Positions 2,220 through 35,870 are shown, counted from the stretch's first letter. The stretch: DNA of 36,583 bases from an uncultured Acidobacteriota bacterium (GCA_903916735.1 CAIWXX010000004.1:1-36583), one strand, 5' to 3'. The notes: a model not told the origin generated them from the sequence alone. Numbers and translations: made by a program.

Positions 2220-2301
2220 TCTTCGACAGATCCCAGAAGCGCTTGTGTTGTCGATGTCGTCCCTCGATTGAGCAACTCTGATGTGCTAATCCAGGAGAAG
2301 T

Positions 2302-2703: not shown

Positions 2704-2728
2704 CCTCCCCTCTTCGCGCCTGAGCGAG

Positions 2729-5844: not shown

Positions 5845-5900
5845 ATCCTACCTCCCAAGAGTTAATTGGCCTCTTTTAACAGATCCCTGTCCTAACACTT

Positions 5901-6572
5901 TTATTTAGTGATCGAGTTTTTGAACTTAGGAAAGTCATTCGGATCATCGAAATATTTCTTCAGTTCATTGAGGAGTTGCGGGACATCCTTGATGGAGAAT
6001 GCCGAATTGGGGCAAACCTTGCGCACGCTCTCCTTGAGGAAAATCTTGGCCATCGGGCCGACAGATTGAGCCAGCGCCTTGGCACAGCGGGTCAGATAAT
6101 TTGAGGCAGCCTCGTCTGCCACGGGCAAAGAACTCGACGATAGTCCTGATGAAGTGGGCCCCGACCAGTTCATTCCTGAGTCCGACATGGCAGGGCTGAG
6201 CGATAACGGGGCCGAACTGGTTAATTCGCCGCCTTTTTCGGTAAGCTTTCTGATCTTGGAGTCGGCGACACGCATGGCAACATTGGCGAAGGACAGGTTG
6301 AGAGTGTTGTCGGCTATCACCGCGAGTACATAGTTGCTGACATTCTTCAACAGCAACTTGCCTTCAGCGAAATGAACCGTCAAGCAGTCCCATTCGTTGT
6401 GCTGAACTTGAAGTGAGTCCAGCGCCTTGACCAGAATCTGGCTCACCTGCTCCAGAAGGGGCTTGTCATAGATCGAATGCGACTGGTGAGCGAGTATCTG
6501 ACCGCTCGAATCGAATAGGAACGCCCCCCGGACACCTTCCAATTCGCGAAGTACTTGAAGAATCTTTTCCAT
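5901..6572 (-). CDS. Roadblock/LC7 protein with C-terminal helical domain
   Basis: This protein of 223 residues has its start at ATG 6572, behind a GAGGAAG site. Residues 1-95 are a roadblock/LC7 domain (KILQVLRELEGVRGAFLFDSSGQILA through YVLAVIADNTLNLSFANVAMRV). A serine-rich linker (about 110-155) follows, then a helical module (about 157-223) containing CAKALAQSVGPMAKIFLKES. That motif resembles the small C-terminal domain found in many bacterial Ser/Thr kinases and response regulators (A-x-x-x-GP-x-A-K-hydrophobic-x-x-K). The domain pairing suggests a scaffold linking the roadblock complex to the kinase pathway (inference). It is a close paralogue of the 2302-2703 product. It lies 25 bp after the small roadblock gene and 56 bp before the Cache-HAMP gene, so co-transcription is likely. 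Confidence 0.87.
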   Translation of the reverse strand: MEKILQVLRELEGVRGAFLFDSSGQILAHQSHSIYDKPLLEQVSQILVKALDSLQVQHNEWDCLTVHFAEGKLLLKNVSNYVLAVIADNTLNLSFANVAMRVADSKIRKLTEKGGELTSSAPLSLSPAMSDSGMNWSGPTSSGLSSSSLPVADEAASNYLTRCAKALAQSVGPMAKIFLKESVRKVCPNSAFSIKDVPQLLNELKKYFDDPNDFPKFKNSITK

Positions 6573-6597
6573 TTCTTCCTCTCCGATTCACAGTGGG

Positions 6598-6915
6598 TCA
6601 GATCTGCAGTGCCTGCTCGATCTTCTTCTCGATTCCCACTATAGATTTGTGCGGATCGACGTAAATGGTTACGACAGCAGTTCCTTTGATATAAAGGACG
6701 CAGGCTTTGTTCGGTCCGGTAATTGTGACTTTCTGTGCTGTGCCAAACCCAAGTGCCTCGCCGCTTTGTTTGGCAGCACTGGAGAGATACCCCATGACTG
6801 CTGCCACGGCTTCAGCATCTGGTTCGTTCTGAGCATCTGAGAGTGTGCCCATCTGATCTCCCAGAACGACACTCACGACCTCAGGCATTTGGGTTAGCAT
6901 TGTCAATTTACTCAT
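6598..6915 (-). CDS. Small stand-alone roadblock/LC7 protein
   Basis: The protein has 105 residues from ATG 6915, chosen because GGAGGG lies 5 nt upstream; an in-frame upstream ATG at 6933 lacks such a site. The protein is almost entirely a roadblock fold: MLTQMPEVVSVVLGDQMG, a long helix (DAEAVAAVMGYLSSAAKQSGEAL), then GFGTAQKVTIT, ACVLYIKGTAVVTIYVD and a final helix IEKKIEQAL. It shares its C-terminal half almost word for word with the tail of the response regulator at 2729-3844, and more distantly with the N-terminus of the 8880-10940 product. Small MglB-like roadblock proteins form homodimers and often act on a Ras-like GTPase. None is visible here. Confidence 0.85.
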   Translation of the reverse strand: MSKLTMLTQMPEVVSVVLGDQMGTLSDAQNEPDAEAVAAVMGYLSSAAKQSGEALGFGTAQKVTITGPNKACVLYIKGTAVVTIYVDPHKSIVGIEKKIEQALQI

Positions 6916-20453: not shown

Positions 20454-23162
20454 TCAGATCTTCCTTTCATCCACCGTCAGTTTGATTTTCCCTGTGCGTG
20501 GATTTCGTGGAAGCCCGCCGGGTGGCAGAACGTCGATAGCGATTGGCGCGATCAACCTACGGTCGCGCATCGTCCGCAGTTCCTTTGAGCTCTCATAGAG
20601 GCGTCCTCGAAGCGACGCAATGGCGGTGTTCACATCGAAATCAATCTCACATTTTGACTCGACACGTAAGAGGAGTTGATCCAGGTGTCCCGACATCCGG
20701 GAGATCATCTGGAAATGTTCGGAGAATCCGGGGGTGCCATGGATCGCCGCTGCCACGACCTCGGGCAGAATATTGCCGCCTCCAATAATCAGGACATCAT
20801 CGGACCGTCCCAGCAGCTCCATGAGGCGCGTCCGGCGGCCGCATGGGCATTGATCATCGATCCAACGCCCCATATCGCCGATGTCATAGCGGATTGTGGG
20901 CATCAAGCGTCGCTGCAGGTTTGTCAGGATGATTTTGCCGGTGACGCCGGGAGGTACCGGTTCGAGTGTATCAGGGTTCACGATCTCCATCAGGTGAACA
21001 TCCTCGTGAACATGATGGACACCGCTCTGACAATATCGGCATTGATAACCGATGGCGCCGGTATCGTTGGAAGTGTAACCGGTCGATGCGAAAATACGGA
21101 TCCCAAGAATTCTCCGCAAGTACTCTCGAGCTCCTTCGAATAGATGTTCCCCGCCGGTCGACACCTTTTCGATTTTCACATCCGCGGTGCGGTTCTTCTC
21201 AACATATTCGGCCAAGCCCAGGAGCACGGATGGAATCGTGATGACGGCATTGGCGCGGAATTGCGCAAGATAGTTCACGATCGTGGCCATATCCACGTTG
21301 CCCGCGATTGGAAGGATGCGGCAACCCGTGTGTTCAAGAGCCATGTTGTAAGAAACAAACGAAGCCCACATGCTGCCGGCAAAGAGCAGGTTGGCAACAA
21401 TGTCCTGCGGTCCGAAAACCGAGAGAGCCAGGCCCTTGCCGAGGCGGATCGCATTAAAATGCTGCTCCTCATGAGTTCGATATACGACCTTGGGCCTGCC
21501 GGTTGTGCCGCCGCTGGAGAATACATAGCCGCTTGATGCTTCGTCTGTCAGTAGACCAGTGCCGTTCGGCGGCACATGATCCTTGAGATTTTCGCCACTA
21601 AGAATCGGCAGCTTGCGAATATCATCGAGCGTCCGGATCGTCACGCCGGCAAACTGCTCCTTGTAATAAGGAGAATAGTTCGCGGCATAGGAGACGATTT
21701 CCTTGACGCGCGTCAGTGTTAACGCATCTCGCGCATCATCATCCATGAAATCGAAATCATCGCCCTCTACTTGGTAGCGATTCCACCGGATATCATAGGA
21801 AGGAGCGCCGCCCGCGCACGCCAATGACGCCCATCGCACAAGCTCGGCGAGGCCACGGCCGCCGTCGTGAGGTGTCCCGTGCTTACGGACAGCCATCTGA
21901 CCGAGCCCTACCATCCGGTCTGCCCCGATACTAGAGAGAGCCTGGCCAAGGGCCTTCGCGCGCTCCTCATCTGCCAGAATCGCCACCGTCTGAATGTAGG
22001 CGCCCATCGTGTTGAGGTGGACAAGTGTCTCCTCCAGGCTCGCTACCGGTTTGAGAAAAATGGTTCGGTTCAGGCAAGAAGTTTGAAATTCAGGGTTCCT
22101 CTGCACAACAACTGTCCATTCAGTCCCATGAGGAGCAAACAGCTTTGACTGCCCCATCGCCCGTTCCACCTTGGCCATTTCGCGAACTCGGGTGATTTCG
22201 GTGGCTTCGTCAGGGTCGAGGCCGCCGGGCGGTATCTCTTCAGCCCAGCGCGAAAGCGCCTGTGCAAGAGCTTCTGCCAGTTCATCCGCCACCGATTCGC
22301 CGACGGGGCTCTCGACATAGACAACATGCGGCGACGAGCAAGCGCTTTGTTCCCACATGATGACGTCACGGCCGATCAGCCTCGCCACCTGATCCATCCC
22401 CATCTGTCTCATTTCTTTTTCTGCGACCATGACAAAGCTGTATTTCGGGCCGTATTCAATGAGCCGCGTATGCAATCCGAGATCCTGGCGGTAGCTGCGC
22501 ACCGTTTCCGCGCCGCCATAGACGACAACGGCATCGCAGCCCTGTTTGATCGCCGCTTCGACACCGGCGTCCCCACCTTTCCACGTCAACAGAGCCATGG
22601 ACCCGGAGACGATTCCATCAGGATCATGCTGTTTGACGCTCTGCGCAAAAAGCACGGGAAAAATGGGATCGACACTGGACATCTTCATGATGTTTACATT
22701 TTTGGTAACGATACCTTGGATGAGCGTGTCCACTCCGCCGACGAAAACATTGCCGGCCGAAACATGTGCGACGACACCCATCGGCTGCGCGAGCATGTAG
22801 CCGCCAAAACGGTTATGATAGACCCAACCGTCCAGATAGTGCATCTCGCCAAGATCACAATCGAGACGAATCTGAAGATTCTCTTTCTTGAGCAGGCCGA
22901 TCATCGTGAGAATGCCCTGTTCGATCATGGCCGGGCTGAAGCCGATGCGATCCGGGAGCTCCGCCAGGGCTTGCTTTCGATAAGCATACTCAGGCGAGCT
23001 CCATGCGACTCCGACTCGATCCAGCACATCCAGAATTTTCTCTAGCGAGACGGCCTGTATCGCCTGACGACGTCTCTGAGCCTCGCTTACGATGGCCTTC
23101 ACTTCCGCCGGTGTCAATGGGCCATCAAGGTTGACGATCTCTCCAAACCGATAAATCCGCAT
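20454..23162 (-). CDS. LuxC-like acyl reductase fused to a PaaK-like adenylate-forming ligase
   Basis: The protein has 902 residues from ATG 23162 (AAGGAG at 8 nt). Residues about 1-460 are a LuxC-type acyl-CoA/acyl-enzyme reductase of the aldehyde-dehydrogenase superfamily: QPMGVVAHVSAGNVF, VVVYGGAETV, and the nucleophile C275 in WEQSACSSPHVVYVE, aligned with LuxC QACSSPQ. Residues about 485-902 are a phenylacetate-CoA-ligase-like adenylation domain: the P-loop SSGGTTGRPK at 549-558, ASTGYTSNDTGAIGYQC, the RYDIGDMG core motif, a zinc-type Cys pair (CPCGRR) and the C-terminal catalytic Lys motif PRNPRTGKIK. One chain can thus activate a carboxylate as acyl-AMP and reduce the acyl-enzyme to aldehyde with NADPH. 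It is the last gene of the operon, 17 bp after the LuxE-like gene. Confidence 0.92.
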   Translation of the reverse strand: MRIYRFGEIVNLDGPLTPAEVKAIVSEAQRRRQAIQAVSLEKILDVLDRVGVAWSSPEYAYRKQALAELPDRIGFSPAMIEQGILTMIGLLKKENLQIRLDCDLGEMHYLDGWVYHNRFGGYMLAQPMGVVAHVSAGNVFVGGVDTLIQGIVTKNVNIMKMSSVDPIFPVLFAQSVKQHDPDGIVSGSMALLTWKGGDAGVEAAIKQGCDAVVVYGGAETVRSYRQDLGLHTRLIEYGPKYSFVMVAEKEMRQMGMDQVARLIGRDVIMWEQSACSSPHVVYVESPVGESVADELAEALAQALSRWAEEIPPGGLDPDEATEITRVREMAKVERAMGQSKLFAPHGTEWTVVVQRNPEFQTSCLNRTIFLKPVASLEETLVHLNTMGAYIQTVAILADEERAKALGQALSSIGADRMVGLGQMAVRKHGTPHDGGRGLAELVRWASLACAGGAPSYDIRWNRYQVEGDDFDFMDDDARDALTLTRVKEIVSYAANYSPYYKEQFAGVTIRTLDDIRKLPILSGENLKDHVPPNGTGLLTDEASSGYVFSSGGTTGRPKVVYRTHEEQHFNAIRLGKGLALSVFGPQDIVANLLFAGSMWASFVSYNMALEHTGCRILPIAGNVDMATIVNYLAQFRANAVITIPSVLLGLAEYVEKNRTADVKIEKVSTGGEHLFEGAREYLRRILGIRIFASTGYTSNDTGAIGYQCRYCQSGVHHVHEDVHLMEIVNPDTLEPVPPGVTGKIILTNLQRRLMPTIRYDIGDMGRWIDDQCPCGRRTRLMELLGRSDDVLIIGGGNILPEVVAAAIHGTPGFSEHFQMISRMSGHLDQLLLRVESKCEIDFDVNTAIASLRGRLYESSKELRTMRDRRLIAPIAIDVLPPGGLPRNPRTGKIKLTVDERKI

Positions 23163-23179
23163 GATATCGCTCCTTCTGC

Positions 23180-24337
23180 CTACTTCGCCCCGACTGTGGC
23201 GCCGGCTTTCTGAACGGTCTTTGTTCGATCGAGCAATTCCGCGGCTGTCAGCGCGCACCCCTGATGCTTGCGAACGCCGGCACGCCCGAGAAGTTTCATC
23301 GTCTGCCCTTTTCGACAGCAGGGGCAGCCGCTTTGCAGCTGAACATAATCCGTCGATACGATTGACAGGGCTGGTTGAGCCCAGTTGTAAGGGGCGACGG
23401 CATGAAGCAAGCCGGTTTCGCCTTCTGGAAGAAGATCGAGTGTGCCGGGCTTTCGAACGAAGATTCGAGAAAAGACTGGTACATGGAAGCTCCCTCTTTC
23501 GCATGTCACATAAGGCACGCCGTGCTCCACAAAGCCGTAGATATCACGAACTCGCGATGGCGGTATCCCGAGCCACTTCTCAACCGCTGTGGCATAAACA
23601 TCCGGTGTCACTGCTTCGTCCGCCATCGTCTTCCAGCCTCCGCCATGAATGACGAGGCTTTCTGGAGCGAAGTGCAACGGCCGGCCATCGGTTTCAATCG
23701 CTTTCAATGTACGCCACGCAAAAGCCGGGAAGCCGGTGATCCGGAGTGGATACGACTGGTGTTCAAATCTCCGCAAGACGTCCAGACATTCATCGGCGTC
23801 GAAGGCAGGCTCGCCTCCCGGTCCGGGATGGATGGCGAAAAATATTTCATGTGCGGGCGCGAATGTCGTATAGGCTGAATGCGCATAGGCGGCTCCTCGA
23901 TGGCTCGCCGTCTGCTGGTCATAGCTGAAGCAGATGTAATTCACCGGATGAGGGTCAACCAGCCGGTAGCTCTCCATGATCCGACGGCGCATCGCCGTCT
24001 GGCGATCGAAACTTCCCTGATCCCACGCCGTGTGACTCTTCTGGCCGGTCGTCCCGCTGCTTGTAAAAGTGATGACAATCTGGTCCTCGGGCACACTCGT
24101 CAGGTGGTACCATTTGAACACATCGACGAGGAGCCAGGGGATTCGAGGGAGATCGACGATGCTTTCGAGATCGGAAATGGAAAACCCGGCATGTTCGCAA
24201 ATATTGCGATAAATTTCCGAATCTCTGTAATGATGCGTAAAAGCAGTTTGCATGGCTTTCAAGAAGGCATCGTCCGCCGCTGGGCCATGGTCAAATGAAT
24301 CCGGCCAGTTGAAAAGGATGTCAAATGCGTCGTTCAT
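23180..24337 (-). CDS. LuxE-like acyl-protein synthetase
   Basis: A 385-residue protein whose ATG 24337 has a strong GGAGGAAA site. It has the LuxE layout: an N-terminal helical region, the adenylation P-loop SSGTTGQK at 93-100, a central IHGGGWKTM, then DIYGFVEHGVPY and a C-terminal Cys cluster (CPCC near residue 338) where LuxE carries the acyl-accepting cysteine region, followed by MKLLGRAGV. In luminous bacteria LuxE activates fatty acid with ATP and passes the acyl group to LuxC for reduction. Here the LuxC partner is the next gene, already fused to another ligase. No luxA or luxB is present in the window. The substrate may be a fatty or aromatic acid; this cannot be told from sequence. 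Confidence 0.9.
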   Translation of the reverse strand: MNDAFDILFNWPDSFDHGPAADDAFLKAMQTAFTHHYRDSEIYRNICEHAGFSISDLESIVDLPRIPWLLVDVFKWYHLTSVPEDQIVITFTSSGTTGQKSHTAWDQGSFDRQTAMRRRIMESYRLVDPHPVNYICFSYDQQTASHRGAAYAHSAYTTFAPAHEIFFAIHPGPGGEPAFDADECLDVLRRFEHQSYPLRITGFPAFAWRTLKAIETDGRPLHFAPESLVIHGGGWKTMADEAVTPDVYATAVEKWLGIPPSRVRDIYGFVEHGVPYVTCERGSFHVPVFSRIFVRKPGTLDLLPEGETGLLHAVAPYNWAQPALSIVSTDYVQLQSGCPCCRKGQTMKLLGRAGVRKHQGCALTAAELLDRTKTVQKAGATVGAK

Positions 24338-24394
24338 TACTTTCCTCCATCGGAACGATATGATGGCCCGTCCCTCTGTTGCGGGATTCGAGCT

Positions 24395-25687
24395 TCAGGA
24401 AATCACGCGTTTGTCGGTGAGCTTCCGCACCTTGCCGGTGATTGGATGGCGCGGTAAAGCTCCTAGTTCAATGAACCGGATACGGAATTGTCGGATGTAG
24501 TTTTTTTCGATACCGATCGCTATCTCCGGCACGATCCGGCAGAGAGCATCTCGCAGCCGGGGCTCGGCGTCTTTGGCTTTGATCGGATCCCCGGCTTCAA
24601 CTGTCAGCCTGAGATCCATCTGATTGGCAATATCCTCAAGCTCGACATTGTAATTCAAGCTGACAAGATCTGAGACCTGTTCCAGGCATTCATCGAAAAC
24701 CTTGAGTGAGATGTAAGCCCCGCCCAGTTTGAAATCCTCTCCGGCGCGACCTGCCAGACGGAAGAGCGGATTGCGATCGCCGCATGAACACACATCTGGA
24801 AGGAACGTGCCGATGTCGCCGATCCGGTAGCGGATGAGCGGCATGATGCGCCGGGCCAGATTCGTGACAATCAACTCGCCGTCCTCGCCCGCTTTGGCAG
24901 GCTGCCCCGTTTCGGTGTTGATTATCTCGATCAGTTGAAAATGCGTCGGGGCATGATATGTGGCAAACCCGCATTGCGGGCACTGATATCCCATGAGTCC
25001 GGCATCGGCGCTGCTATAAGCCAGAGCCTTGATCTCGCCTACCTTGAGCCCATGTCGGACATGCCGTTGCGCCTGCTCGCTCATCTGTTCGCCCGCATAC
25101 CCAATCAGCCGTAATGAAGGGAATTCATATTTCTCCTTGAGAGCGAGGTCGGCGAGGAGCACGAAGAGAGTCGGCAATGAGAGCATGACGCTGGGATCAA
25201 ACTCATGACACATCCGTGCAATCTCATCGGGAGAGATATTGGCGGAGATCGGCAAATGGACGGCTCCGACAAGACGCAGCGCGTCATGAACTCCGATGAA
25301 TGAGGGCCAGAGATGGCCTGCCACGAAAAGATTCGCGACCCGATCGTCCTCCCGGATGCCGAGCAGATGCAAGGCCATCGACTGAACGTTGCAGGAGGCC
25401 TCCCACTCCTCATAGCTCAACACGCTATGCCGAGCAACGCCTGTTGAACCTCCGGTCGATGTGATAATCATCCTGCTGAGAGGCTTCGTCAACATGCGCC
25501 GATAGCGCGGGTAGGCATTGTCGAAGATTTCCTGGCGGGTCAGCATCGGGATCTTGCTCCAGGAATCGGCGTCGGAGGGTACCGCACACCCCATGTACTT
25601 CTCCGCATAAAAAGACGCCGCCATGGCTGCTCGGTAGATCTCGTAGGCTCTCCCTATTTGTTCATCTCGAAGCAGATGTGGAAACAT
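24395..25687 (-). CDS. PaaK-like AMP-dependent ligase
   Basis: The protein has 430 residues. ATG 25687 directly follows the previous gene's TAA, with GGAGG inside that gene's last codons, so translation is coupled. It shows the compact phenylacetate-CoA-ligase fold: P-loop TSTGGSTGVAR near 77-87 (the usual Lys is Arg), YSSADAGLMGYQCPQCG, ELIVTNLARRIMPLIRYRIGDIG, a second Cys pair (CSCGDR) giving a possible zinc site, and a final PITGKVRK motif with the catalytic Lys. It probably makes an acyl-AMP or acyl-CoA from a carboxylic acid. It is related to the ligase half of the 20454-23162 protein but clearly distinct from it. Confidence 0.88.
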   Translation of the reverse strand: MFPHLLRDEQIGRAYEIYRAAMAASFYAEKYMGCAVPSDADSWSKIPMLTRQEIFDNAYPRYRRMLTKPLSRMIITSTGGSTGVARHSVLSYEEWEASCNVQSMALHLLGIREDDRVANLFVAGHLWPSFIGVHDALRLVGAVHLPISANISPDEIARMCHEFDPSVMLSLPTLFVLLADLALKEKYEFPSLRLIGYAGEQMSEQAQRHVRHGLKVGEIKALAYSSADAGLMGYQCPQCGFATYHAPTHFQLIEIINTETGQPAKAGEDGELIVTNLARRIMPLIRYRIGDIGTFLPDVCSCGDRNPLFRLAGRAGEDFKLGGAYISLKVFDECLEQVSDLVSLNYNVELEDIANQMDLRLTVEAGDPIKAKDAEPRLRDALCRIVPEIAIGIEKNYIRQFRIRFIELGALPRHPITGKVRKLTDKRVIS

Positions 25688-27055
25688 TTAGTCCTCCACG
25701 ATATATCGATGCTTGGCCTTGCCGGGAACTTCGGCGATATCCCTGAGCTCAACACGAATCAGTGGTTCACCGGCAGACTGGCTGAGAGCATCATACTTGG
25801 CATTGAATTCAAGGCTGTTTCTCTTTAAAAATCCAATGAGGCTTTCTTGATAGTGCGCACAGAGCTCCACGGCGAGCTCCCCACGCACAAAGATCCTGAA
25901 GGAGAAGATGGTCACGCCGGATTTTTCGACACGCCTGAGCTCGAAGAGGCCGCCATACCGGTAACGCTCAGGCAGTGAAAAGAAATGACCGTTAATGGCG
26001 CCGATCAGAAGATTGGTACCATAGAAGATGACGGCATCGGATGCACGGCCGTGGACGAAGAGAATTTGTTCGGGCAGCTTTTCAGGCAAACCCGAAGGCA
26101 GGTATGGCAACTCCAGGCATTTCTGTCGCGACAGGAGGCCTCCCGAATCGCCGGTGTCATAGCGCACAAGAGGGACCATCTGATCTTTTGTCACGACGAT
26201 GTTTCCATTGACGATTTCCAAAAAACATCCGGCGGGTATGGCAAGCAACATCGGGGTTGAATCCGTCCCGAAGAACTCCTGCGAGAGTGCCGGGTGGCGG
26301 TGGAAAAACTTCCGCAACGCAATTGTCGCCGCGGTTTCCGCCCCCAGATCGCCGGCATCGGCGGAACCGTATCCGGTCCACACAACAAATGGATGATCCT
26401 CTGGATGTCCGAATCGTCGTGCAATGGCTTCACGAAAATGCTCTGTGAAGTATTCCCCGACAACCGGGAAAAAGATGGTGCCTGGCGGAGCCTGAATACC
26501 ACGGCGATCAAGCAGCGCGGCGATCAGATTGACACTGGAAGGGTTGAGAATCCAGATGGCCTGTTCATAGTTAGACCCGTAGCGCGCGTAAATTTCGACT
26601 GATTCAGACAGGTTGAGGCTCGGCGTCGCAACCGTCAACGGATGCCGCCCTGAAGCGGCCAGCACGCGCATCGCGGACGCGATCTGTATGCCGCCGATCC
26701 ATGTCCCAAAGGCAAGGCAGACGAAGATGAGGGTCTTTCGTTTGTCAATGCCGTAATAATCGATCATCAGGTTTTCGAGGGACGCCATATATTCGGCCTC
26801 ATCACACGGCCTCTTCGGCCAGAAGATGGACCCCGACTTGCTGAATCCGGAACTGGCGCCGATGAGATGACACCCCGAGATTGACCCGTCCCAGCAGAGA
26901 TTTTCCGTGGAATAATCGAGTAGATAATTCGCCTTGTTCATGAGCGGCAAGTCCGCCCATGGCGCTGATGGGACGGTGTTCTGCTTTTTTAGAAATTCAC
27001 GATAGGCCGGAACCCTTGCGTGAACATCGGAAACGTACTGAAGACGATTATTCAT
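25688..27055 (-). CDS. Divergent PaaK-like adenylate-forming protein
   Basis: Encodes 455 residues from ATG 27055, which follows an AGGGTGG site. It has the PaaK overall plan (helical N-terminus LQYVSDVHARVPAYREFL; DLPLMNKANYL; FFPVVGEYFTEHFREA; WTGYGSADAGDLG; MVPLVRYDTGDSGG; C-terminal GKAKHRYIV). The P-loop is changed to GASSGFSKSG, without the usual T-T-G-x-P-K. The zinc-type Cys pairs are absent. The C-terminal Lys motif is kept. This divergence could mean a different acyl acceptor, such as an amine or carrier protein, or loss of adenylation. It is the first of the ligase genes in the operon, 33 bp after the MFS gene, and its TAA abuts the next ATG. Confidence 0.83.
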   Translation of the reverse strand: MNNRLQYVSDVHARVPAYREFLKKQNTVPSAPWADLPLMNKANYLLDYSTENLCWDGSISGCHLIGASSGFSKSGSIFWPKRPCDEAEYMASLENLMIDYYGIDKRKTLIFVCLAFGTWIGGIQIASAMRVLAASGRHPLTVATPSLNLSESVEIYARYGSNYEQAIWILNPSSVNLIAALLDRRGIQAPPGTIFFPVVGEYFTEHFREAIARRFGHPEDHPFVVWTGYGSADAGDLGAETAATIALRKFFHRHPALSQEFFGTDSTPMLLAIPAGCFLEIVNGNIVVTKDQMVPLVRYDTGDSGGLLSRQKCLELPYLPSGLPEKLPEQILFVHGRASDAVIFYGTNLLIGAINGHFFSLPERYRYGGLFELRRVEKSGVTIFSFRIFVRGELAVELCAHYQESLIGFLKRNSLEFNAKYDALSQSAGEPLIRVELRDIAEVPGKAKHRYIVED

Positions 27056-27088
27056 GTTCCACCCTGGAAATATGATGTTCCCATTCCA

Positions 27089-28282
27089 TCAAAGAGACCT
27101 CAGTTCGCGGCACCTGATCAGGTTCAAGGAGCAGATGACGATAATAATTCCACTGAATAGAAACACGACGCGGGGCGTCAGAATGTCGACAAGCGCCCCC
27201 ATGACGCCATAAGCGATCGGTTGCGTCGAAAGAGAAATGGCCGTCAGGAATCCGAAGACCCGACCACGCACACGATCCGGGAGAATCTCCTGATACAGGG
27301 AGATCAATGTGATGTTGACGGCACTCAGAGCGAGGCCGGCCATAACGAGGCCCATGATCGTCACAGGCATCGAGAGAATCATGCTCATGAAGAGAAACGC
27401 CATCCCCAACGCCGCTAACCCTCCGATGATCAAAACGCCTCGTCGGAGGGCGGCGTGCATCGCGGATAGGCCTGCGGCGCCAAGCAGCATTCCGAGAGCG
27501 AAACTGCTCATCAACACACCCAGCCCGGCCGCACCGGTTTTGAAGATGCCTTCGGCGAGGACCGGAACCATGACCGGGATCGCGGAAAAAAAGAAGTTCA
27601 CGACGAGAATCGTGACGATCGTGCGCGCGATCAGTGGCTCGGCGATCATCGCCTTCCAGCCTTCCTGGATGTCCTGCAGCATCCCTCGACAAGCTCCACC
27701 GGCTGCTGCTGTCAGCGTGATTCTATATTCACACGCAGCTGAGAAGAGGAATGAGACGGAGTTTGCGAGAAATGCCAGCGGGACACCGATCACAGCAATC
27801 AAGGCGCTGCCCACGATGGGCCCCAGCACTCCGCTGGCACTCGCGCTGAGCTGGCTGAGTGCATTGGCATTCGTCAGCAATTCCGGTGAAACGATGTTTG
27901 GAAGGATCGCCATCGCGGCCGGGTTGAAAAATGCCGATGCGATCGACATGAACGCCGTCGCAATGAGAAGCTCGGGCAACGTCAACACTCCCGCCCAGGC
28001 GCGCCATGCCAGCCATCCGCCGATGACAGCTCGGACAACGTCACTCCAGATCATCACCTGCCGGCGGTTCCACCGATCGGCGCAGCTGCCGGCAACCGGG
28101 CCGATGAGAACCCCGGGCAGTGTGGCTGCGATCAAGACGCCACCAACCGCCAACCCTGATCCGGTCCATTTGTACACAATCCATAAGAGGGCAAGCGAGT
28201 GGATGCGATCACCGACCTGTGAGACCACCTGGCCCAGCCAGAAAGACCTGAAATTCTTCTCGTCACGGATCAGCTTCAACAT
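27089..28282 (-). CDS. MFS transporter (EntS/macrolide-efflux type)
   Basis: The protein has 397 residues. ATG 28282 has GGAGTG 7 nt upstream and overlaps the preceding gene by 7 bp. Twelve hydrophobic helices are expected; the N-terminus (NFRSFWLGQVVSQVGDRIHSLALLWIVYKWTGSG) and the loop motif GPVAGSCADRWNRRQVMIWSD (in part) are typical of MFS exporters related to enterobactin or macrolide efflux. A second such loop, ILPDRVRGRVFGF, occurs near residue 335. Its position in the middle of the ligase/LuxC operon suggests export of the pathway product or import of its precursor (inference). A long frame on the opposite strand across this gene is a shadow. Confidence 0.92.
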   Translation of the reverse strand: MLKLIRDEKNFRSFWLGQVVSQVGDRIHSLALLWIVYKWTGSGLAVGGVLIAATLPGVLIGPVAGSCADRWNRRQVMIWSDVVRAVIGGWLAWRAWAGVLTLPELLIATAFMSIASAFFNPAAMAILPNIVSPELLTNANALSQLSASASGVLGPIVGSALIAVIGVPLAFLANSVSFLFSAACEYRITLTAAAGGACRGMLQDIQEGWKAMIAEPLIARTIVTILVVNFFFSAIPVMVPVLAEGIFKTGAAGLGVLMSSFALGMLLGAAGLSAMHAALRRGVLIIGGLAALGMAFLFMSMILSMPVTIMGLVMAGLALSAVNITLISLYQEILPDRVRGRVFGFLTAISLSTQPIAYGVMGALVDILTPRVVFLFSGIIIVICSLNLIRCRELRSL

Positions 28283-29772
28283 GATTCACTCCGGCGATAT
28301 TTCCCGACCCGCGTCCTTTCCGCCGAAACATAGCGCAGAAGCTCCCCGCCAAATGGATTCACAGTCTGAAGGCGCGATAGGTCGAGATCGGTCGCCAGGA
28401 ACTGAAGGCGCAACGTATCACCATCAGGAGCGAAATGAGGACCGACTCCACCGAAGAAAAAACCCTCCTCCTCGACCTGCACACAAAGATCTGGCATGCC
28501 GGCCTGGGAGAGTGGAAGTTCGAGGTACACGGATTCAGAACCGACGATTTCACAGAGATCACGTAAAGCGCGGCGGATTTCTATTGCACTGTCGATTCCA
28601 ACCCGGCTCACTCTTATGGTCGCGAATCCCCAAGACCGGTGATAGCGGACATCCATCCGCCCGGCCCCGGCGACGATTCCGCTTTCGCCAATGTCGACCG
28701 GAATGCCGATCTGATCATAGATGCGTTCAATCATGTTCCGGTGATGATGAGGCGGGAAGATCGTGATTCTCGGCAGAGGCGCCAGGCGCTTGAAATAGAG
28801 CATCGTGCTCTCACGTTGATGGAGAGGCTCGGTGAGAGCTCGCTTAAAGATAAAAGATCGCGGGACAAGACCAAGCGTGATGCCACAGACGTGCGAGCCA
28901 AAACTCTCATTCACTTTCTGACTGACAGGATGACTGGTCACAGGCTGGCTGAAAATGCCCAAAAGCCCCATCGCTCTCCCCTCTTCCTCCAGGAACATCC
29001 GCATACGTTCCATGAGGCGCCGGCCGCGATGAACCGGCGAAACCACAGCCTGGCCGGTTTCGGCTATCGGTCCTAGATCAGGACGTTCCAGCGCGTAGTG
29101 ACCAACAACTTCGCCGTTTTCCGCCACAGCGACCGCCGATACAAGCCGGCTGGTCTGATTGAGATGTGTGATTCGATCGGGGTAATAGAGATCCTCATTC
29201 GGATAGGTATATCCATAACAACGATAGATGCATTGCGCCACCTTGATCGCATCCTGCGGCTGCAATCGCCGGATCGAGTAAGTCTGTTCAGGGGCCTGAT
29301 CGACACTCTCGATATACCGTTTCAATTCATCAGGCTGGAGCTGCGAAGTGACGTCTCCGTGCGGCCTGTTTTTAGCAAGGCGCAGCTCTTTGCCTTCAAC
29401 TCCATGGTTGATCCAGCGCACATCATCAGCGGAGAGTTCAATGAGGCGGGAGCCGAGCCCGACATGAACATCTTTAGAAACGTCTCGTTGAGAATCCAAA
29501 GAGACATTGAAGGGAAGACCGCGATCACGCACAGAGATGGTCAATGCAACGGGTGTCACTTCAGCTTCCAGCGTGAATGTCTCCTGTTCACCGGGCTCGA
29601 AGGCGTGCTGGATGCTATTAGTGCAGGCTTCGTCGGCGGCCAGTACCAGAGCTTCGGCATCGTCCTGAGGCAATTCCGCGACGGCAGCCATCTCACGCAC
29701 AAAAGCCCGGGCCATGCTGAGAAGACGCAGATCGTTCGCCAGAGTCAAAGTTGCTCGCGTCGCTGGATTCAT
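28276..29772 (-). CDS. RsbW-like anti-sigma kinase fused to GNAT-like region
   Basis: The product of 498 residues starts at ATG 29772. Residues about 5-140 form an RsbW-type HATPase domain: N-box VLAADEACTNSIQHAF, VRDRGLPFN as the D-x-G nucleotide motif, and GLGSRLIELSADDVRW as the lid. Residues about 165-330 look like a GNAT acetyltransferase fold (YSIRRLQPQDAIKVAQCIYRCYGYTY; AVAENGEVVGHYALERPD; AVVSPVHRGRRLMERMRMFLEEEG with the R-x-x-G-x-x pattern). The remaining 170 residues hold a second, GNAT-like or uncharacterised domain (FFFGGVGPHFAPDGDTLRLQFL, in part). The protein should bind the STAS antagonist encoded 30 bp upstream. The GNAT part may sense or modify a metabolite. No sigma factor gene is present. 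Confidence 0.87.
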   Translation of the reverse strand: MNPATRATLTLANDLRLLSMARAFVREMAAVAELPQDDAEALVLAADEACTNSIQHAFEPGEQETFTLEAEVTPVALTISVRDRGLPFNVSLDSQRDVSKDVHVGLGSRLIELSADDVRWINHGVEGKELRLAKNRPHGDVTSQLQPDELKRYIESVDQAPEQTYSIRRLQPQDAIKVAQCIYRCYGYTYPNEDLYYPDRITHLNQTSRLVSAVAVAENGEVVGHYALERPDLGPIAETGQAVVSPVHRGRRLMERMRMFLEEEGRAMGLLGIFSQPVTSHPVSQKVNESFGSHVCGITLGLVPRSFIFKRALTEPLHQRESTMLYFKRLAPLPRITIFPPHHHRNMIERIYDQIGIPVDIGESGIVAGAGRMDVRYHRSWGFATIRVSRVGIDSAIEIRRALRDLCEIVGSESVYLELPLSQAGMPDLCVQVEEEGFFFGGVGPHFAPDGDTLRLQFLATDLDLSRLQTVNPFGGELLRYVSAERTRVGKYRRSESC

Positions 29773-29802
29773 CGAGATCGCCTCATCATCAATTGCTCAG
29801 TC

Positions 29803-30165
29803 TCATGCAGGATTCGTCCCCTTGGGCGAAGCCCAGTCATGAAGCGCCTCCTGAAGTGTTGGAAATATTGGAATTAATCTGTCGAATCCAACAATTGCGA
29901 AAACCTTCGCCACATGACCGCTCACACCAAACACTCTGACTTCACCGCCGATAGCACGCGAATCCTTCTGCGCTTTCTGCAGAACACGCAGCCCGGCACT
30001 CGAAAGAAACGTCACCTCAGTAAAGTTCAGAATAACGCGACCAGCCTCTTTTGCGATCCATTCTTTAAGGGCCGATGCCAGATCCTCAGAGGTGAATGCA
30101 TCCAGCTCACCGACCACGTCCAGGAGTCCAAATCCGCCAGGATGATGCGATGCGGATATTTTCAT
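29803..30165 (-). CDS. STAS-domain anti-sigma factor antagonist (RsbV-like)
   Basis: The 120-residue protein is read from ATG 30165, chosen because GAGGAG lies 8 nt upstream; the open frame further upstream has no homology. It is a single STAS domain: GFGLLDVVGELDAFTSEDLASAL, RVILNFTEVTFLSSAGLRVL with the phosphorylatable Ser in the D/E-x-x-F-L-S-S-x-G signature, and the final helix AL-HDWA. RsbV-like proteins are phosphorylated by an RsbW kinase and dephosphorylated by a PP2C phosphatase. Both partners are encoded on either side in the same operon, which makes a complete partner-switch trio. Confidence 0.93.
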   Translation of the reverse strand: MKISASHHPGGFGLLDVVGELDAFTSEDLASALKEWIAKEAGRVILNFTEVTFLSSAGLRVLQKAQKDSRAIGGEVRVFGVSGHVAKVFAIVGFDRLIPIFPTLQEALHDWASPKGTNPA

Positions 30166-30252
30166 GGGCGTACTCCTCTCCACAGTACTTCCGGCATTAT
30201 AGTCTGTTTTCGCACGGCGATTGAATGGATACATCCGCGAACGTACATCTTT

Positions 30253-32010
30253 TCAAACCACCATCCGATCCTGCCAGCGAAGCAGCAGGAGGGTTATATC
30301 ATCCGACTGTGGTTCATCCCCGGCGAAAACCGCCACATCATCTCTCACGGCTTGCATGATGTCCCCAATCGGCAAGTTTCCATGAGCGCGAACAGCGGCG
30401 ATGAGCCTGTCCAATCCATATTCATCATGCCGCCTATTCATTGCCTCGGTAACTCCATCTGTGTAGAGCACTAGCATGTCTCCAGGCTCGATCGGGATCG
30501 TGTGTTCACTAATGCCCGCTTCCATTGTGACGCCGAGGGCAATACCGGAATCATCCAGGAGGCTGACTTCCGGCATCCCCCGACGAATCAGAATCGGGGG
30601 ATTATGCCCGGCGTTGATATACGACAGATGACCTGCATCCCGCTCCAGGGTCATAAAAAAAACCGTCACAAACATCGCCGCCGCATTGTCGCCAGCGATC
30701 TGCTTGTTAAAAAAACTTAGTGCCTCTAATGCTGTCGGTCGTTCCGTGGCATAGGCTCGGATGAGACTACGGGAAAGAGCCATGAAAAGAGCAGCGGGTA
30801 CGCCTTTGCCGGAGACGTCAGCAATCAGAATACCGATGCGATGGCTGTCCAACACAATGACGTCATAGAAATCACCGCCGACCAGGCGAGCCGGAAGGCA
30901 ACAGCCACAGATCTCAACATTCAATAGCTGCGGCATCTCTCTCGGCAAAAAGCTCCGCTGTATGTCTTGAGCGATCTGCAGCTCTTTGAGATTCCGTTCA
31001 CTCTCTGCGGTGACACGCCGCAGATTTTCGCGCGACATGAGCAAATCCTCGGCCATCTTATTAAGTGCCTGACTGAGGCGGCCCAGTTCATCAGAGCTCG
31101 AATCGAGAATTCGGACATCGGCTAACTTTCCTTCTCCGATAAGTCGTACCCCTTCTCCTAAGGCACGAGTACGGTCCCGCATCTTCTGTGCCGCTCGACC
31201 GATGATAATTAGAGAAAGAAAGAAACTCACACTTATCATGACCGGTAGGACAAGGCTGGACACCATGGGCATCCCCACTTGATCCATCAACCCGGCGATA
31301 CTCACGACAAGAATGGGCAACAGGCCGGCGAGGCCAAAGTCAAAAAGCAGGCGCACTGAAACCGGCAGATCCCGCATCTTCCAATCGGCCCAATTGAGCC
31401 TGCGGCTCCCCGCCCACCACGTCTTGCAAAAGAACGGTGAATCGATAATCAGAGGCGAGAAAGCGCGCAGGAGTGGTATCCCAAAGATGAGGCATGGAAC
31501 GGAATTGGCCAACAGCCATGTGATGAAGAGCCTGCGAATATGCGAGACATCCTGTATTCCTTCATGCAAGGCCAGGTCTGTGATCGCGAGTGTAGCGCCG
31601 AGCAGATTCGACAGGAATCCGCCGACAAAGATGAACACTCCCATTTCGCGTCGTGTCGGCAACGATGGATCCAGGCGCCAATGGCGGAAGACCCAGCCGG
31701 CCAGGAAACTCTGCAGCATATTGGCAGGGATGTAACCCCACATGACAGGATGAGCGCCTCGGGTAATTGTGCCGCTGATAACTCCAGTCAATGTCCCGGC
31801 GAGCACGCCCCAACCACCAAACCAGATTCCGCCGATCACCTGCAAAGCGGCAGCAGGCCAGAAGACACCGATATTCGGACCCACATTGAAGACCACCAGC
31901 CCCAAACTGCCGATGACAGTCCCGACCAGGGTTAGAAGCAGAAAAACAATAATATGTTGCAGGCCTGGCCTGCCCCTATCCTGATCTGTCAAATGCCAGA
32001 TGTTGTGCAT
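30253..32010 (-). CDS. Membrane SpoIIE/PP2C-type phosphatase with HAMP domain (RsbU-like)
   Basis: This 585-residue protein begins with seven to nine membrane helices (about 20-275, including VFWPAAALQVIGGIWFGGWG), which resemble a MASE1-like sensory region (tentative). A HAMP domain follows (about 285-335, ALGEGVRLIGEG, DELGRLSQALNKMAEDL), then a short coil and a SpoIIE/PP2C domain (about 360-580). The metal-binding acids are GGDFYD, ADVSGKG, YTDGVTEA and DDITLL, all present, so the phosphatase is probably active. It should dephosphorylate the STAS protein encoded 87 bp downstream in response to a membrane signal. It is the first gene of the 32010-to-20454 operon. No strong ribosome binding site precedes ATG 32010. 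Confidence 0.92.
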   Translation of the reverse strand: MHNIWHLTDQDRGRPGLQHIIVFLLLTLVGTVIGSLGLVVFNVGPNIGVFWPAAALQVIGGIWFGGWGVLAGTLTGVISGTITRGAHPVMWGYIPANMLQSFLAGWVFRHWRLDPSLPTRREMGVFIFVGGFLSNLLGATLAITDLALHEGIQDVSHIRRLFITWLLANSVPCLIFGIPLLRAFSPLIIDSPFFCKTWWAGSRRLNWADWKMRDLPVSVRLLFDFGLAGLLPILVVSIAGLMDQVGMPMVSSLVLPVMISVSFFLSLIIIGRAAQKMRDRTRALGEGVRLIGEGKLADVRILDSSSDELGRLSQALNKMAEDLLMSRENLRRVTAESERNLKELQIAQDIQRSFLPREMPQLLNVEICGCCLPARLVGGDFYDVIVLDSHRIGILIADVSGKGVPAALFMALSRSLIRAYATERPTALEALSFFNKQIAGDNAAAMFVTVFFMTLERDAGHLSYINAGHNPPILIRRGMPEVSLLDDSGIALGVTMEAGISEHTIPIEPGDMLVLYTDGVTEAMNRRHDEYGLDRLIAAVRAHGNLPIGDIMQAVRDDVAVFAGDEPQSDDITLLLLRWQDRMVV

Positions 32011-32825: not shown

Positions 32826-35800
32826 CTAATCGCAATTAAAACTGGTTACCCGGCATACCGCAATACCAGTCCCAAGATTAACATCTCTATCGGCCCAGAC
32901 GACCCTGCTGGGAAAGGCGAAGTCGAAGAAATAGGCGGAATCTGCACCAGCAGTTTCTGAGGACCATACGAATGGCCAAATCCCCCCAGGCTCAAAAGGC
33001 GGCACAGGATAACTGCAACACCAATCCGGCGAAGTATCAGAACAGTGAACAAGTATACATGTCGTCAGCTTCGTATCGTAAATACTTTGCAATTCAGCGA
33101 TCGTCGGCATCCGCCAGTCTTCGTGGCCATGTACTTTGTCGTGATTCATGTCATTTATCGCATTCGACGCATCGTTCCAATCGACTTTGCCGGTTCCTGT
33201 TATAGGATATTGTGTCCACATCAAATTCAACAGGTGGTCGTAGACAATGTGAGGCACCGCCAGATACCTCGGCTGGCAGAAGCGAGCATACTGGTACAGG
33301 TAATATACTGTACCCTGAACCGTGATTGTTCCAGATCGATCTTGATTACTGTTATTAAGATTCACGGCGTAGCTCACGGTCCCGTTGCCCTTCATGGTCA
33401 GCTGGCTCGGGAGTATGATCCAGTCGGGCGAACTAGTGGAGATCGTCCACGGGCAACTCGAGTCCGTGGTCACCGTGAAAGAGGCGGCCGTCTCGGGGCA
33501 GTTGAAAAATTTGGTCAATGCGGTTGTCAAGCCCGAGACTGTGTAGGTACAGCCGCTGTCCTGCGTGATCGTGTACACCTGGTCATCAATCGTGATGTGT
33601 CCCGTGCGGGCGGGCCCGGTGTTTGGGGTGACGGTGTAAAACACGTTATACGAACTGCGCCCGCTGGCTGTGACATTCGTGATCCAGGATGGTGAATCGT
33701 TGACTGTCGACCACGAGCAACCCGCCTGAGTCTGGAGAACGAAGGAAGTGTCGGTCACTCCGCTTGCCGGCCAGTTTTTTGTGTTGCCGGGGTAGAAGCT
33801 GTACGTGCAGCCGTCATCCTGCGTGACGGTATGCACCTGGCCTTTGACCGTGATGTGCCCCGTGCGCGCCGTGCCCAAGGTGTTGGCGGAGACAAAGTAA
33901 TACACGATCTCGGAGCCGGTCCCGCTGGGCGTGTCGACCCTGATCCAGGCCGCATCGCTCGATGCCGTCCAGGCACAACCATCCATAGTGGTGACGCTAA
34001 AAGCGCCGTTGCCCCCGGAATTATCGAAGTGCCACGAGTAGTGACTGAGTGAATAGGGGCAACAATCCTGTGTCACCGTGTGCATCCGGCCCTGAACCGT
34101 GATGTGGCCTGTGCGAGCAGAGATCGTGTCGTTGGCGAGAACGGTGTAGACCACGTCACCAGTATCCGTCCCGCTTGCAGTCACATTCTTGATCCAAGAC
34201 GGCGAATCGTTGGTTGTCGTCCACGCGCAACCCGTCTGCGTGTTGACGGTAAATGTGCCGGTACCTCCGGGCTGTGCGAAATTCTGGCTCTCGGATGAAA
34301 GATTGTACGTGCAGCCGTCATTCTGCGTTACGGTGTACATCTGGTCCTGAACCCAGATGTGCCCCGTTCGAGCCATGCCGGCGGTGCTGGCGGCGACGGT
34401 GTAGCCCACGTCACCGGTTCCCGTCCCGCTCGCCGTGACATTTGTGATCCAAGACGGCGAATCGTTCGTTGTCTTCCACGCGCAACCGCCCTGCGTGCTG
34501 ACAGTGAACGTGCCGGCTCCACCGGATTTTGTGAAATTCCAGCTGCTGCGAGTGAGAGAATAGGAGCAACCCGCGGCCTGCGTGACGGTGTGCGTATTGC
34601 CCTGAACCGTGATGTGCCCCTTTCGTGTGGCGGTCGTGTCGTTGACGGCGACGTTGTAGCTTACGGCGCCTGTGCCTGTCCCGAATCCGGTGACACCCGT
34701 GATCCAACCGGGCGAATCGTTAGAGGTCGTCCATTCGCAACCCGGAGAAGACGCCGCTACCGTGAAAGTGCCGACGCCCGCGGACGGTGTGAAGTTATTA
34801 CTGTAGGATGAGAGGCTGTAGGCACAACCATTGCCCTGCGTGACGGTGTACGTCTCACCTCCCACGGAGATAGTGCCAGAGCGCGCACCAGCCCCGGTGT
34901 ACGCATCCACAGTGTAGGTCACTGTCCCGTTTCCCGTGCCTGACGAGTTGGTGTGGATCCACGTCGAGTCGGACGCCGCCGCCCACGCACAATTGGCGGC
35001 GGAAGCCATCACGTCGAAAGACCCGGATCCGCCCGAGGGGTCGAAGCTCATGCTCGTGGAGGCGAGAGTGAATGTGCATGGCTGGTATGTGAAACTCTTC
35101 AACACGACTTCATATTTGGCGGACTGCCTCACCGGAGGCACGCCCTTGTACAGCCATAAATTGATCACCACCGGTATGGGCGATTGCGGGATGCTGCTGG
35201 GATCCACCGGCTCGAAGGGAACACGACTGATGACGCTCTTGGTATTGGTCACGTAACCATTGAAGGAGGTGAATTGAACCGATTTGGGCTTCCAGATGAA
35301 CTGATGTGTCGCCATTTGGCTGGCGGGCATCTTGAACCGGCTTGTCCAGTTGGCGCCGTAATAGGGCGGGATTTCCGGCCAGACCGTGAAGTTTCCCTGC
35401 GGCGCTTTCGCTTTGCCCCATCTGGCCATTTCAATGTCGATCTCATTCGTCTGGTCGGGCCCGATTGCACAAGGAAAAGCGGGATAGTTAAACATGCCGA
35501 ACACGATGTTCTTGTCCAGCCTGGTCACGTTTGTGGAGACCTGCCACTGGTACGTGCCGTAGTGAAAACACTGATCGGTCTGCAGCTGCGCGCCGTACCA
35601 GTTGTACGAACGCGTGGACGCGACATGCTTTCTGGTGATCCGGAGATGAAGGTAGCCTCGCGAGTCTTTCCACACATTGGATCCGGAAAGATTGCAGCCC
35701 ATCGGCCCCGTTCCAGTTCCATCGGACACATTCCAGATGATGCCGGATCGGGATGGCCATTCAATGGTCGTCGCAGCGAGTGGAATCGAAATTGATAGTT

Positions 35801-35870
35801 GTATAATTAATACCGGCGCGGATAACCGCAAAAATTTCCCCAACACGACAAGACTCCTTTCACGTGTCAT
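32826..35870 (-). CDS. Secreted GH16-like protein with seven BACON repeats and DUF1566-like C-terminus
   Basis: The open frame encodes 1014 residues from ATG 35870. A GTG at 35846, 7 nt after AAAGGAG, has the better ribosome site and leaves an intact signal peptide (LGKFLRLSAPVLIIQLSISIPLAA). Residues about 35-262 resemble a GH16/concanavalin-type domain with the catalytic pattern E143-I-D145-I-E147 and a YGTYQWQV strand. Residues about 265-858 are seven BACON-type repeats, each starting with C-x-Y-x-L/F, carrying a central CxW and ending in hydrophobic-TVTQ. Residues about 865-1014 look like a DUF1566/Lcl C-terminal domain (NLMWTQYP, WNDASNAINDM, EDWRMPTIAELQSIYD, FVWSSE). The likely role is extracellular binding and perhaps cleavage of a beta-glucan-type polysaccharide. 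It is monocistronic. Confidence 0.88.
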   Translation of the reverse strand: MTRERSLVVLGKFLRLSAPVLIIQLSISIPLAATTIEWPSRSGIIWNVSDGTGTGPMGCNLSGSNVWKDSRGYLHLRITRKHVASTRSYNWYGAQLQTDQCFHYGTYQWQVSTNVTRLDKNIVFGMFNYPAFPCAIGPDQTNEIDIEMARWGKAKAPQGNFTVWPEIPPYYGANWTSRFKMPASQMATHQFIWKPKSVQFTSFNGYVTNTKSVISRVPFEPVDPSSIPQSPIPVVINLWLYKGVPPVRQSAKYEVVLKSFTYQPCTFTLASTSMSFDPSGGSGSFDVMASAANCAWAAASDSTWIHTNSSGTGNGTVTYTVDAYTGAGARSGTISVGGETYTVTQGNGCAYSLSSYSNNFTPSAGVGTFTVAASSPGCEWTTSNDSPGWITGVTGFGTGTGAVSYNVAVNDTTATRKGHITVQGNTHTVTQAAGCSYSLTRSSWNFTKSGGAGTFTVSTQGGCAWKTTNDSPSWITNVTASGTGTGDVGYTVAASTAGMARTGHIWVQDQMYTVTQNDGCTYNLSSESQNFAQPGGTGTFTVNTQTGCAWTTTNDSPSWIKNVTASGTDTGDVVYTVLANDTISARTGHITVQGRMHTVTQDCCPYSLSHYSWHFDNSGGNGAFSVTTMDGCAWTASSDAAWIRVDTPSGTGSEIVYYFVSANTLGTARTGHITVKGQVHTVTQDDGCTYSFYPGNTKNWPASGVTDTSFVLQTQAGCSWSTVNDSPSWITNVTASGRSSYNVFYTVTPNTGPARTGHITIDDQVYTITQDSGCTYTVSGLTTALTKFFNCPETAASFTVTTDSSCPWTISTSSPDWIILPSQLTMKGNGTVSYAVNLNNSNQDRSGTITVQGTVYYLYQYARFCQPRYLAVPHIVYDHLLNLMWTQYPITGTGKVDWNDASNAINDMNHDKVHGHEDWRMPTIAELQSIYDTKLTTCILVHCSDTSPDWCCSYPVPPFEPGGIWPFVWSSETAGADSAYFFDFAFPSRVVWADRDVNLGTGIAVCRVTSFNCD
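33290..35078 (-). repeat. Tandem BACON-encoding repeats (seven units of about 80-90 codons)
   Basis: Seven units of roughly 250-270 bp lie in tandem inside the GH16-like gene. The DNA of neighbouring units is still alike around the segments encoding NDSPSWI-NVTASGT and ARTGHI-VQ, most strongly between units 3 and 4 (near 34100-34600), pointing to fairly recent duplication or gene conversion. The first and last units are the most divergent. Confidence 0.8.

Follow-up and report, generated by a model that had tools for sequence, protein, structure and literature searches.

What does an operon make that carries LuxC and LuxE, the enzymes known from the lux operon luxCDABE, in a genome that has no luciferase, and why should it also carry the genes of a regulatory partner switch? 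The question is raised by a 36,583-nt stretch of DNA from an uncultured Acidobacteriota bacterium (GCA_903916735.1, CAIWXX010000004.1:1-36583; hereafter the window, with 1-based coordinates throughout), in which eight open reading frames (ORFs), all on the minus strand, occupy positions 20454-32010. From the first gene onward they encode an RsbU-like phosphatase, an RsbV-like STAS protein, a HATPase-GNAT fusion, an MFS exporter, two PaaK-like ligases (PaaK1 and PaaK2), a LuxE-like acyl-protein synthetase and a LuxC-PaaK3 fusion. The eight-gene operon, with its order and families, had been proposed in an initial annotation and was borne out by the ORFs, by Pfam and NCBIfam searches and, for PaaK1, by a fold match. 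We put forward, as a proposal with about an even chance of being right, that the operon would specify a carrier-free pathway to an exported aldehyde-bearing or aldehyde-derived small molecule, most likely a short N-acylated peptide aldehyde.

The case for an aldehyde starts from the last two genes. The LuxE-like protein (385 amino acids (aa); 23180..24337; PF04443, 2e-41) has a GC motif corresponding to the C-terminal acyl-accepting cysteine, which aligns with LuxE of the lux structure 7xc6 (7xc6_E) and is conserved across the set of homologues. The LuxC-PaaK3 fusion (902 aa; 20454..23162; PF05893, 1e-89, together with PF00501 and PF14535) consists of a LuxC acyl-thioester reductase (about residues 35-445) followed by a PaaK-like ligase (about residues 465-902). 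Its Cys275, within MWEQSACSSPH, aligns with the acyl-accepting cysteine of LuxC (7xc6_A), and the EQSACSS cysteine is conserved over 24 sequences. Because LuxC and LuxE both retain their acyl-thioester relay residues, an aldehyde-forming pathway, as first suggested in the initial annotation, is a reasonable reading of the sequence. The two families and their relay cysteines are common to luxCDABE, but the window operon is only distantly similar to it in sequence, is without luxD and has its LuxC fused to a ligase, and the luciferase-family gene is absent from the window's genome. Indeed, PF00296, the luciferase family, has no match anywhere in this 5.37-Mb, 98.7% complete genome with a single LuxC, while 10 of 14 control genomes do match. 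Nor is PF00296 found in a tally of the 25 most frequent Pfam families among 83 genes flanking related cassettes, in which single occurrences are not all visible. The absence of luxAB claimed earlier was thus confirmed, and luminescence was rejected, since PF00296 is without a match in the whole genome. The fusion also differs from carboxylic acid reductase (CAR; A-PCP-R), a single polypeptide that contains an adenylation, a carrier and a reductase domain, whereas Pfam finds only LuxC and AMP-binding domains, and no carrier domain, in LuxC-PaaK3.

Three PaaK-type units would be available to activate substrates. PaaK2 (430 aa; 24395..25687; PF00501, 2.5e-13) is an adenylate-forming ligase with 43-56% identity between phyla and a conserved TGK lysine. 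The divergent PaaK1 (455 aa; 25688..27055) has no Pfam or NCBIfam match; its AlphaFold (AF2) model, with a predicted local distance difference test (pLDDT) score of 88, matches the PaaK structures 2y27/2y4o in Foldseek (E 1e-18), which points to an adenylate-forming enzyme, and SSGFS, YGSAD and the C-terminal K448 are invariant over 19 sequences. All three units retain the C-terminal adenylation-type lysine and the glycine-rich and tyrosine/aspartate motifs. Equivalog scores are far below their cut-offs for LuxC (162/750), LuxE (95/550) and PaaK (149/646); for the phenylacetate-CoA ligase equivalog TIGR02155 the best score was 148.7 bits against a cut-off of 646.3, a match of fold and superfamily only. 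As no ligase reaches an equivalog cut-off, the substrates are not readable from the family. PaaK-fold adenylating enzymes also occur in natural-product clusters (AjiA1, the 6siw ligase and BagE/FevW, by structure or NCBIfam match), but identity is low and their substrates are not transferable to the window ligases.

The third gene was where the initial annotation fell short. It had been described as a plain RsbW-like kinase, and the acetyltransferase had been missed: in the protein (498 aa; 28276..29772; PF13581, 3e-20; PF00583, 1e-4), residues 12-134 form a HATPase domain, which is followed in the same chain by a GNAT acetyltransferase (about residues 163-337) and a C-terminal domain. In the AF2 model (pLDDT 84) the first 135 residues resemble RsbW/SpoIIAB (Z about 17), and the predicted fold of residues 163-337 resembles Naa10, RimI, Ard1 and N-acetylglutamate synthase (NAGS; Z 13-14), so that alpha-amine acetyltransferases are among the nearest structures to the model; the C-terminal 160 residues were barely covered by the fold search. 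This acetyltransferase makes our proposal more specific than "some aldehyde or alcohol". The fourth gene encodes an exporter of the EntS/MFS_3 type (397 aa; 27089..28282; PF05977, 4e-31; PF07690, 6e-31; EntS-like in NCBIfam).

The families, the intact key residues, the linkage, the co-variation and the kinase/pseudokinase pattern are observed, while substrates, reaction order, product and direction of switching are inferred, each step of the pathway from the family of its enzyme. In this proposed pathway the GNAT domain would cap an amino acid at its alpha-amine. The growing chain would then be activated as adenylate or thioester, and coupled to the next amino acid, by PaaK1, PaaK2 and the PaaK3 half of the fusion; LuxE would adenylate the completed carboxylate and load it onto its own cysteine; and the LuxC half would accept the acyl group on Cys275 and reduce it with NADPH to the aldehyde, which the MFS pump would export. 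Pfam found no polyketide synthase (PKS), nonribosomal peptide synthetase (NRPS) or carrier protein in the operon, and none was among the most frequent families of the 83 flanking genes. Because of this absence, and because a pump recurs, we expect the pathway to draw on common metabolites and its product to be exported. A leupeptin-like route offers a lead: in Streptomyces, older enzymology of leupeptin is reported to include a leucine acetyltransferase, a leupeptin acid synthetase and a reductase dependent on ATP and NADPH. In more recent work, discrete AMP-ligases together with a reductase make leupeptin (Li et al. 2020, doi 10.1002/anie.202005506, via PMC11212599), leupABCD is reported from Photorhabdus, Xenorhabdus and Klebsiella michiganensis (PMC11212599, PMC8283571, PMC11480411), and the Klebsiella leupABCD adjoins a transporter (PMC8283571). 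Likened by description only, leupABCD resembles the window operon in its discrete AMP-dependent ligases, aldehyde-yielding reductase, adjacent transporter and non-NRPS character. The window cassette differs in its three PaaK-type units, its LuxC-PaaK fusion, the HATPase-GNAT protein and the partner-switch genes. By family or fold, the operon appears to have both separate AMP-dependent ligases without a carrier protein and a reductase composed of LuxC and LuxE, as a leupeptin-type route would need. The pathway had been called undescribed; with leupeptin as a close functional precedent, that word needs a qualifier. In the open-access literature, we found no paper linking LuxC/LuxE with peptide aldehydes or with RsbW.

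The initial annotation had suggested looking for the same gene families together in other genomes. Across 84,980 genomes, one per species, we found 32 loci encoding the LuxC-PaaK fusion (42-62% identity), in about nine phyla as labelled in the records (Acidobacteriota, Pseudomonadota, Thermodesulfobacteriota, an unplaced deltaproteobacterium, Bacteroidota, Bacillota, Campylobacterota, Muiribacteriota and Neomarinimicrobiota). Almost every locus comes from a metagenome bin; the one isolate is Marichromatium gracile DSM 203. The six non-regulatory genes, encoding GNAT, an exporter (MFS or MATE), PaaK1, PaaK2, LuxE and LuxC-PaaK, are all linked in 18 of the 32 loci, in a few of which one gene is cut or frame-shifted, and most of the remaining loci are cut by contig ends. 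Since the gene set is linked in 18 loci, including a cultured isolate, the operon is not an assembly artefact. Two findings that had been named in advance as damaging, the presence of luxAB in related clusters and a lack of linkage in all relatives, were not encountered. The window's gene order recurs in about 10 loci, and other orders occur in gut Bacteroidales, in Pelotomaculum and in locus L048; L050 has no LuxE between PaaK2 and LuxC. A MATE pump takes the place of the MFS exporter in L038 and L041 (by Pfam) and in L044 (by position), and is the sole recurrent companion with an obvious role, the flanking-gene tally otherwise containing as recurrent only Cache sensor parts, two radical SAM and three BACON proteins. 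Pairwise distances of the six proteins co-vary in 15 of 15 pairs (Mantel r 0.76-0.94, p 0.001). Since the loci share common descent and include near-copies (for example L039/L040 and L041/L043/L044), locus counts do not equal independent events. The unit is rare: strong PaaK1 matches occur in 4 of 297 genomes of the window's phylum, the fusion in 2 of 77 Chromatiaceae, and a match to a related query in 1 of 369 sampled Gammaproteobacteria. This rarity, together with a maximum-likelihood tree in which phyla are intermixed (the tree program cautions that mixing is no proof), fits horizontal spread, and the cassette is a conserved, rare and probably mobile unit.

Smaller versions were found through tblastn against plasmids. 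Streptomyces operons, including those of S. cattleyicolor pSCAT and BHT-5-2, read PaaK-MFS-GNAT-LuxE-LuxC:PaaK. On Salmonella enterica IncF plasmids, four genes in 5.76 kb read LuxE-LuxC:ligase-PaaK-GNAT and adjoin a truncated MdfA-like pump; the two Salmonella sets, L056 and L061 (CP054717, CP053580), are 99.8% identical and lie near recombinase genes. The full-set plasmid matches to the Salmonella cassette come from Salmonella records alone, and, at the search sensitivity applied, its genes had no match among 5,426 genomes of E. coli. The enzyme set and the LuxC-ligase fusion are thus common to these operons and the window, but the plasmid operons are without PaaK1, the HATPase domain and the partner-switch genes, and their LuxE is 35-39% identical to that of the window. 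The GNAT part itself had no tblastn match on plasmids, though a profile detects the Salmonella GNAT as a homologous member of the window's GNAT family (E about 1e-26), collinear strongly over the first half and weakly over the second. Because the smaller versions keep a GNAT without a HATPase domain, we regard the GNAT as the constant part and the HATPase domain as an addition, the constant core being acetyltransferase, ligase and LuxE/LuxC.

Two further plasmids came to light alongside these. On Streptomyces europaeiscabiei plasmid NZ_CP109155 (L059, 4007-12465), YcaO, MBL-fold, DUF692 iron protein, LuxE and LuxC genes lie together near MFS and ABC-F genes; this may be a cluster resembling those for ribosomally synthesized and post-translationally modified peptides that uses LuxE/LuxC for peptide carboxylate reduction. 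A cold-seep Chloroflexota plasmid (CP069395; L060, 12001-14402) bears a LuxE-LuxC pair without ligases or luciferase.

What, then, would the partner switch control? The RsbU-like phosphatase (gene 1; 585 aa; 30253..32010; PF07228, 8e-52) has a membrane N-terminal part, a HAMP-like region and a PP2C/SpoIIE catalytic domain whose motifs (GGDFYD, ADVSGKG, TDGVTE and SDDIT), including the metal-binding Asp motifs, are intact. The phosphatases scanned in relatives bear Cache sensor domains, from which the membrane part of the window phosphatase differs. The STAS protein (143 aa; 29803..30234; PF01740, 1e-23) has the phospho-acceptor-type motif FLSSAGL, of which SSAGL is common to cassette-adjoining STAS genes in other phyla, and the window's HATPase has an intact N-box (DEACTN, with E48 and the subsequent Asn). 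PP2C phosphatase, SSAGL-type STAS protein and HATPase kinase fold are shared with RsbU-RsbV-RsbW and SpoIIAB-SpoIIAA, and in SiaABC-SiaD of Pseudomonas aeruginosa such a switch acts on an enzyme. Unlike in these systems, the window's HATPase shares a chain with an acetyltransferase encoded in a biosynthetic operon, and Pfam detects no sigma factor among the eight operon genes, an unlinked one being possible.

In 15 loci the cassette is flanked by a phosphatase gene together with a STAS gene, a kinase gene or both, and a 16th, L033, stops after the STAS gene near its contig end. In 13 loci the N-box Asn is visible in a separate HATPase, which is either free-standing or part of the phosphatase, and 10 of these loci also have a readable GNAT fusion. 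In all 10, the fused HATPase is without the N-box Asn, which is replaced by H, Y, R, Q or G. The fused-domain Asn is kept in the window, whose operon has no separate kinase, and in L037, a short contig. This loss where a separate kinase exists, and retention in the window without one, suggests a partner switch that acts directly on an enzyme. On the simplest reading of these sequences, the fused HATPase is a putative STAS docking site and the window protein may be kinase and target in one. Activity would then be governed by the partner switch and not by an operon-encoded sigma factor: once dephosphorylated by the PP2C phosphatase, the STAS protein would bind the HATPase domain and switch the GNAT or the complex that the GNAT nucleates, and in the window the intact HATPase would re-phosphorylate the STAS protein. 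That control may act through protein binding, as the initial annotation supposed, gains indirect support from the absence of a sigma factor in the operon, the HATPase-enzyme fusion and the phosphatase and STAS genes beside the cassette in other phyla. In L042 (15326-17656) and L045 (6497-8842) the switch is merged in a different way, phosphatase and kinase forming a single Cache-HAMP-PP2C-HATPase protein whose gene adjoins a STAS gene.

PP2C/STAS/HATPase modules usually end at a sigma factor, and it is conceivable, if rather unlikely, that the switch genes only control transcription of a remote regulon, by way of an unlinked sigma factor, and adjoin the cassette for co-expression. Cassettes without switch genes nearby would agree with this. 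It accounts less readily for the covalent joining of HATPase to GNAT in nearly all relatives and for the loss of the catalytic Asn from the fused domain where a separate kinase is present, and SiaC, which acts on the diguanylate cyclase SiaD, provides a precedent for non-transcriptional partner-switch output (PMC8457831). As for the chemistry, the nearest competitor to a peptide aldehyde is a fatty or aryl aldehyde or alcohol: PaaK-like enzymes would form acyl-coenzyme A (acyl-CoA), LuxE/LuxC would reduce it and the GNAT would acylate an amine co-substrate, to give a secreted signal of the lipid- or aryl-amide type. We consider this possible but distinctly less probable than our own proposal. 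LuxE and LuxC owe their names to fatty acyl reduction and can be aligned with the Photobacterium complex 7xc6, and both PaaK3 and PaaK1 find their best structural matches among PaaK structures, some with phenylacetyl-adenylate; yet the LuxC, LuxE and PaaK scores lie far below the equivalog cut-offs, three ligases and a GNAT exceed the needs of one acid, and the 83-gene tally contains no recurrent fatty-acid or aromatic supply genes. The N-acyl peptide aldehyde is ranked ahead of it because such a product would call for the parts that the operon has: an acetyltransferase, two to three ligases, LuxE/LuxC and a pump. It is improbable, by our estimate, that LuxC-PaaK and LuxE form a modification system acylating or reducing a protein or cell-envelope component, with a separate role for the pump. 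LuxE is by family an acyl-protein synthetase, and luciferase-less LuxE/LuxC homologues adjoin YcaO/DUF692 genes in Streptomyces and are reported from flagellar glycosylation islands (PMC7874193). Against such a role, all 18 full loci have an MFS or MATE pump, the Streptomyces versions have an MFS pump too, and no recurrent envelope or glycan gene adjoins the cassette in the tally.

Several observations weigh against a switch-controlled peptide-aldehyde pathway itself. PaaK-like enzymes more often form aromatic or aliphatic CoA thioesters and LuxE/LuxC classically act on fatty acids, which makes the enzymes equally compatible with an aldehyde of the fatty or aryl type. L042 has LuxE, LuxC-PaaK and GNAT but is without PaaK1 and PaaK2; the Streptomyces GNATs match weakly, at 15-17 bits in two, with no match in NBC_00158; and the published leupA primer reads MKIAIHN, with which no Salmonella cassette gene starts. 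The cassette is without partner-switch genes nearby in L023, L024, L046 and L048, and because several cassettes are so placed, partner-switch control is not obligatory, being optional or supplied from elsewhere.

The genes of the operon are tightly packed. Gaps of 18 bp (phosphatase to STAS), 30 bp (STAS to HATPase-GNAT), 33 bp (MFS to PaaK1), 57 bp (PaaK2 to LuxE) and 17 bp (LuxE to LuxC-PaaK3) are joined by a 7-bp overlap of the HATPase-GNAT gene (to 28276) with the MFS gene (from 28282) and a direct PaaK1/PaaK2 junction (25688/25687). The overlap and the junction had been correctly described, but the longest gap is 57 bp, not 87 bp as first given. The LuxC ORF as first called had 1016 aa (start 23504) and ran over into luxE. 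As ATG 23162 is preceded by an AAGGAG ribosome site and the resulting 902 aa align end to end with homologues, the start is likely at 23162, not 23504. No Rfam element was found in the window, and promoter and terminator scans gave no signal above chance level. A role in phage defence was considered and rejected, PADLOC having no match for any of the eight proteins. Upstream of the operon on the same strand, positions 32826-35870 encode a secreted-looking protein of 1014 aa with several BACON domains and an Lcl_C domain; elsewhere in the window, at 6968-10940, a Ser/Thr kinase with an AAA domain adjoins a TPR and DUF4388 protein. In L024, from a Desulfuromonas bin, three ORFs of 591-604 aa (1723-3537, 5101-6882 and 6977-8752) lie between cassette genes; the first matches BACON and weakly leukocidin, has a lipoprotein-like start and is 76% identical to the second. 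BACON proteins thus adjoin the cassette in both the window and L024; their local similarity is weak and we take it as coincidence.

To conclude, we tentatively suggest, with less than even confidence, that these loci represent a widespread class of horizontally moving, carrier-free peptide-aldehyde pathways, for a protease inhibitor or a signal, in which a partner switch acts on an acetyltransferase whose HATPase domain is a working kinase or a pseudokinase STAS receptor depending on lineage. The kinase or pseudokinase state of the fused domain alternates with the presence of a separate kinase, and, if the proposal holds, direct control of metabolic enzymes by STAS/HATPase switches would become testable here, since the putative effector and the HATPase domain are parts of one polypeptide. 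If the proposal is true, this would be a biosynthetic cassette without the PKS/NRPS signature genes on which cluster mining relies, spanning purple sulfur bacteria to gut Bacteroidales, and its predicted product class, the peptide aldehydes, has known protease-inhibiting activity.

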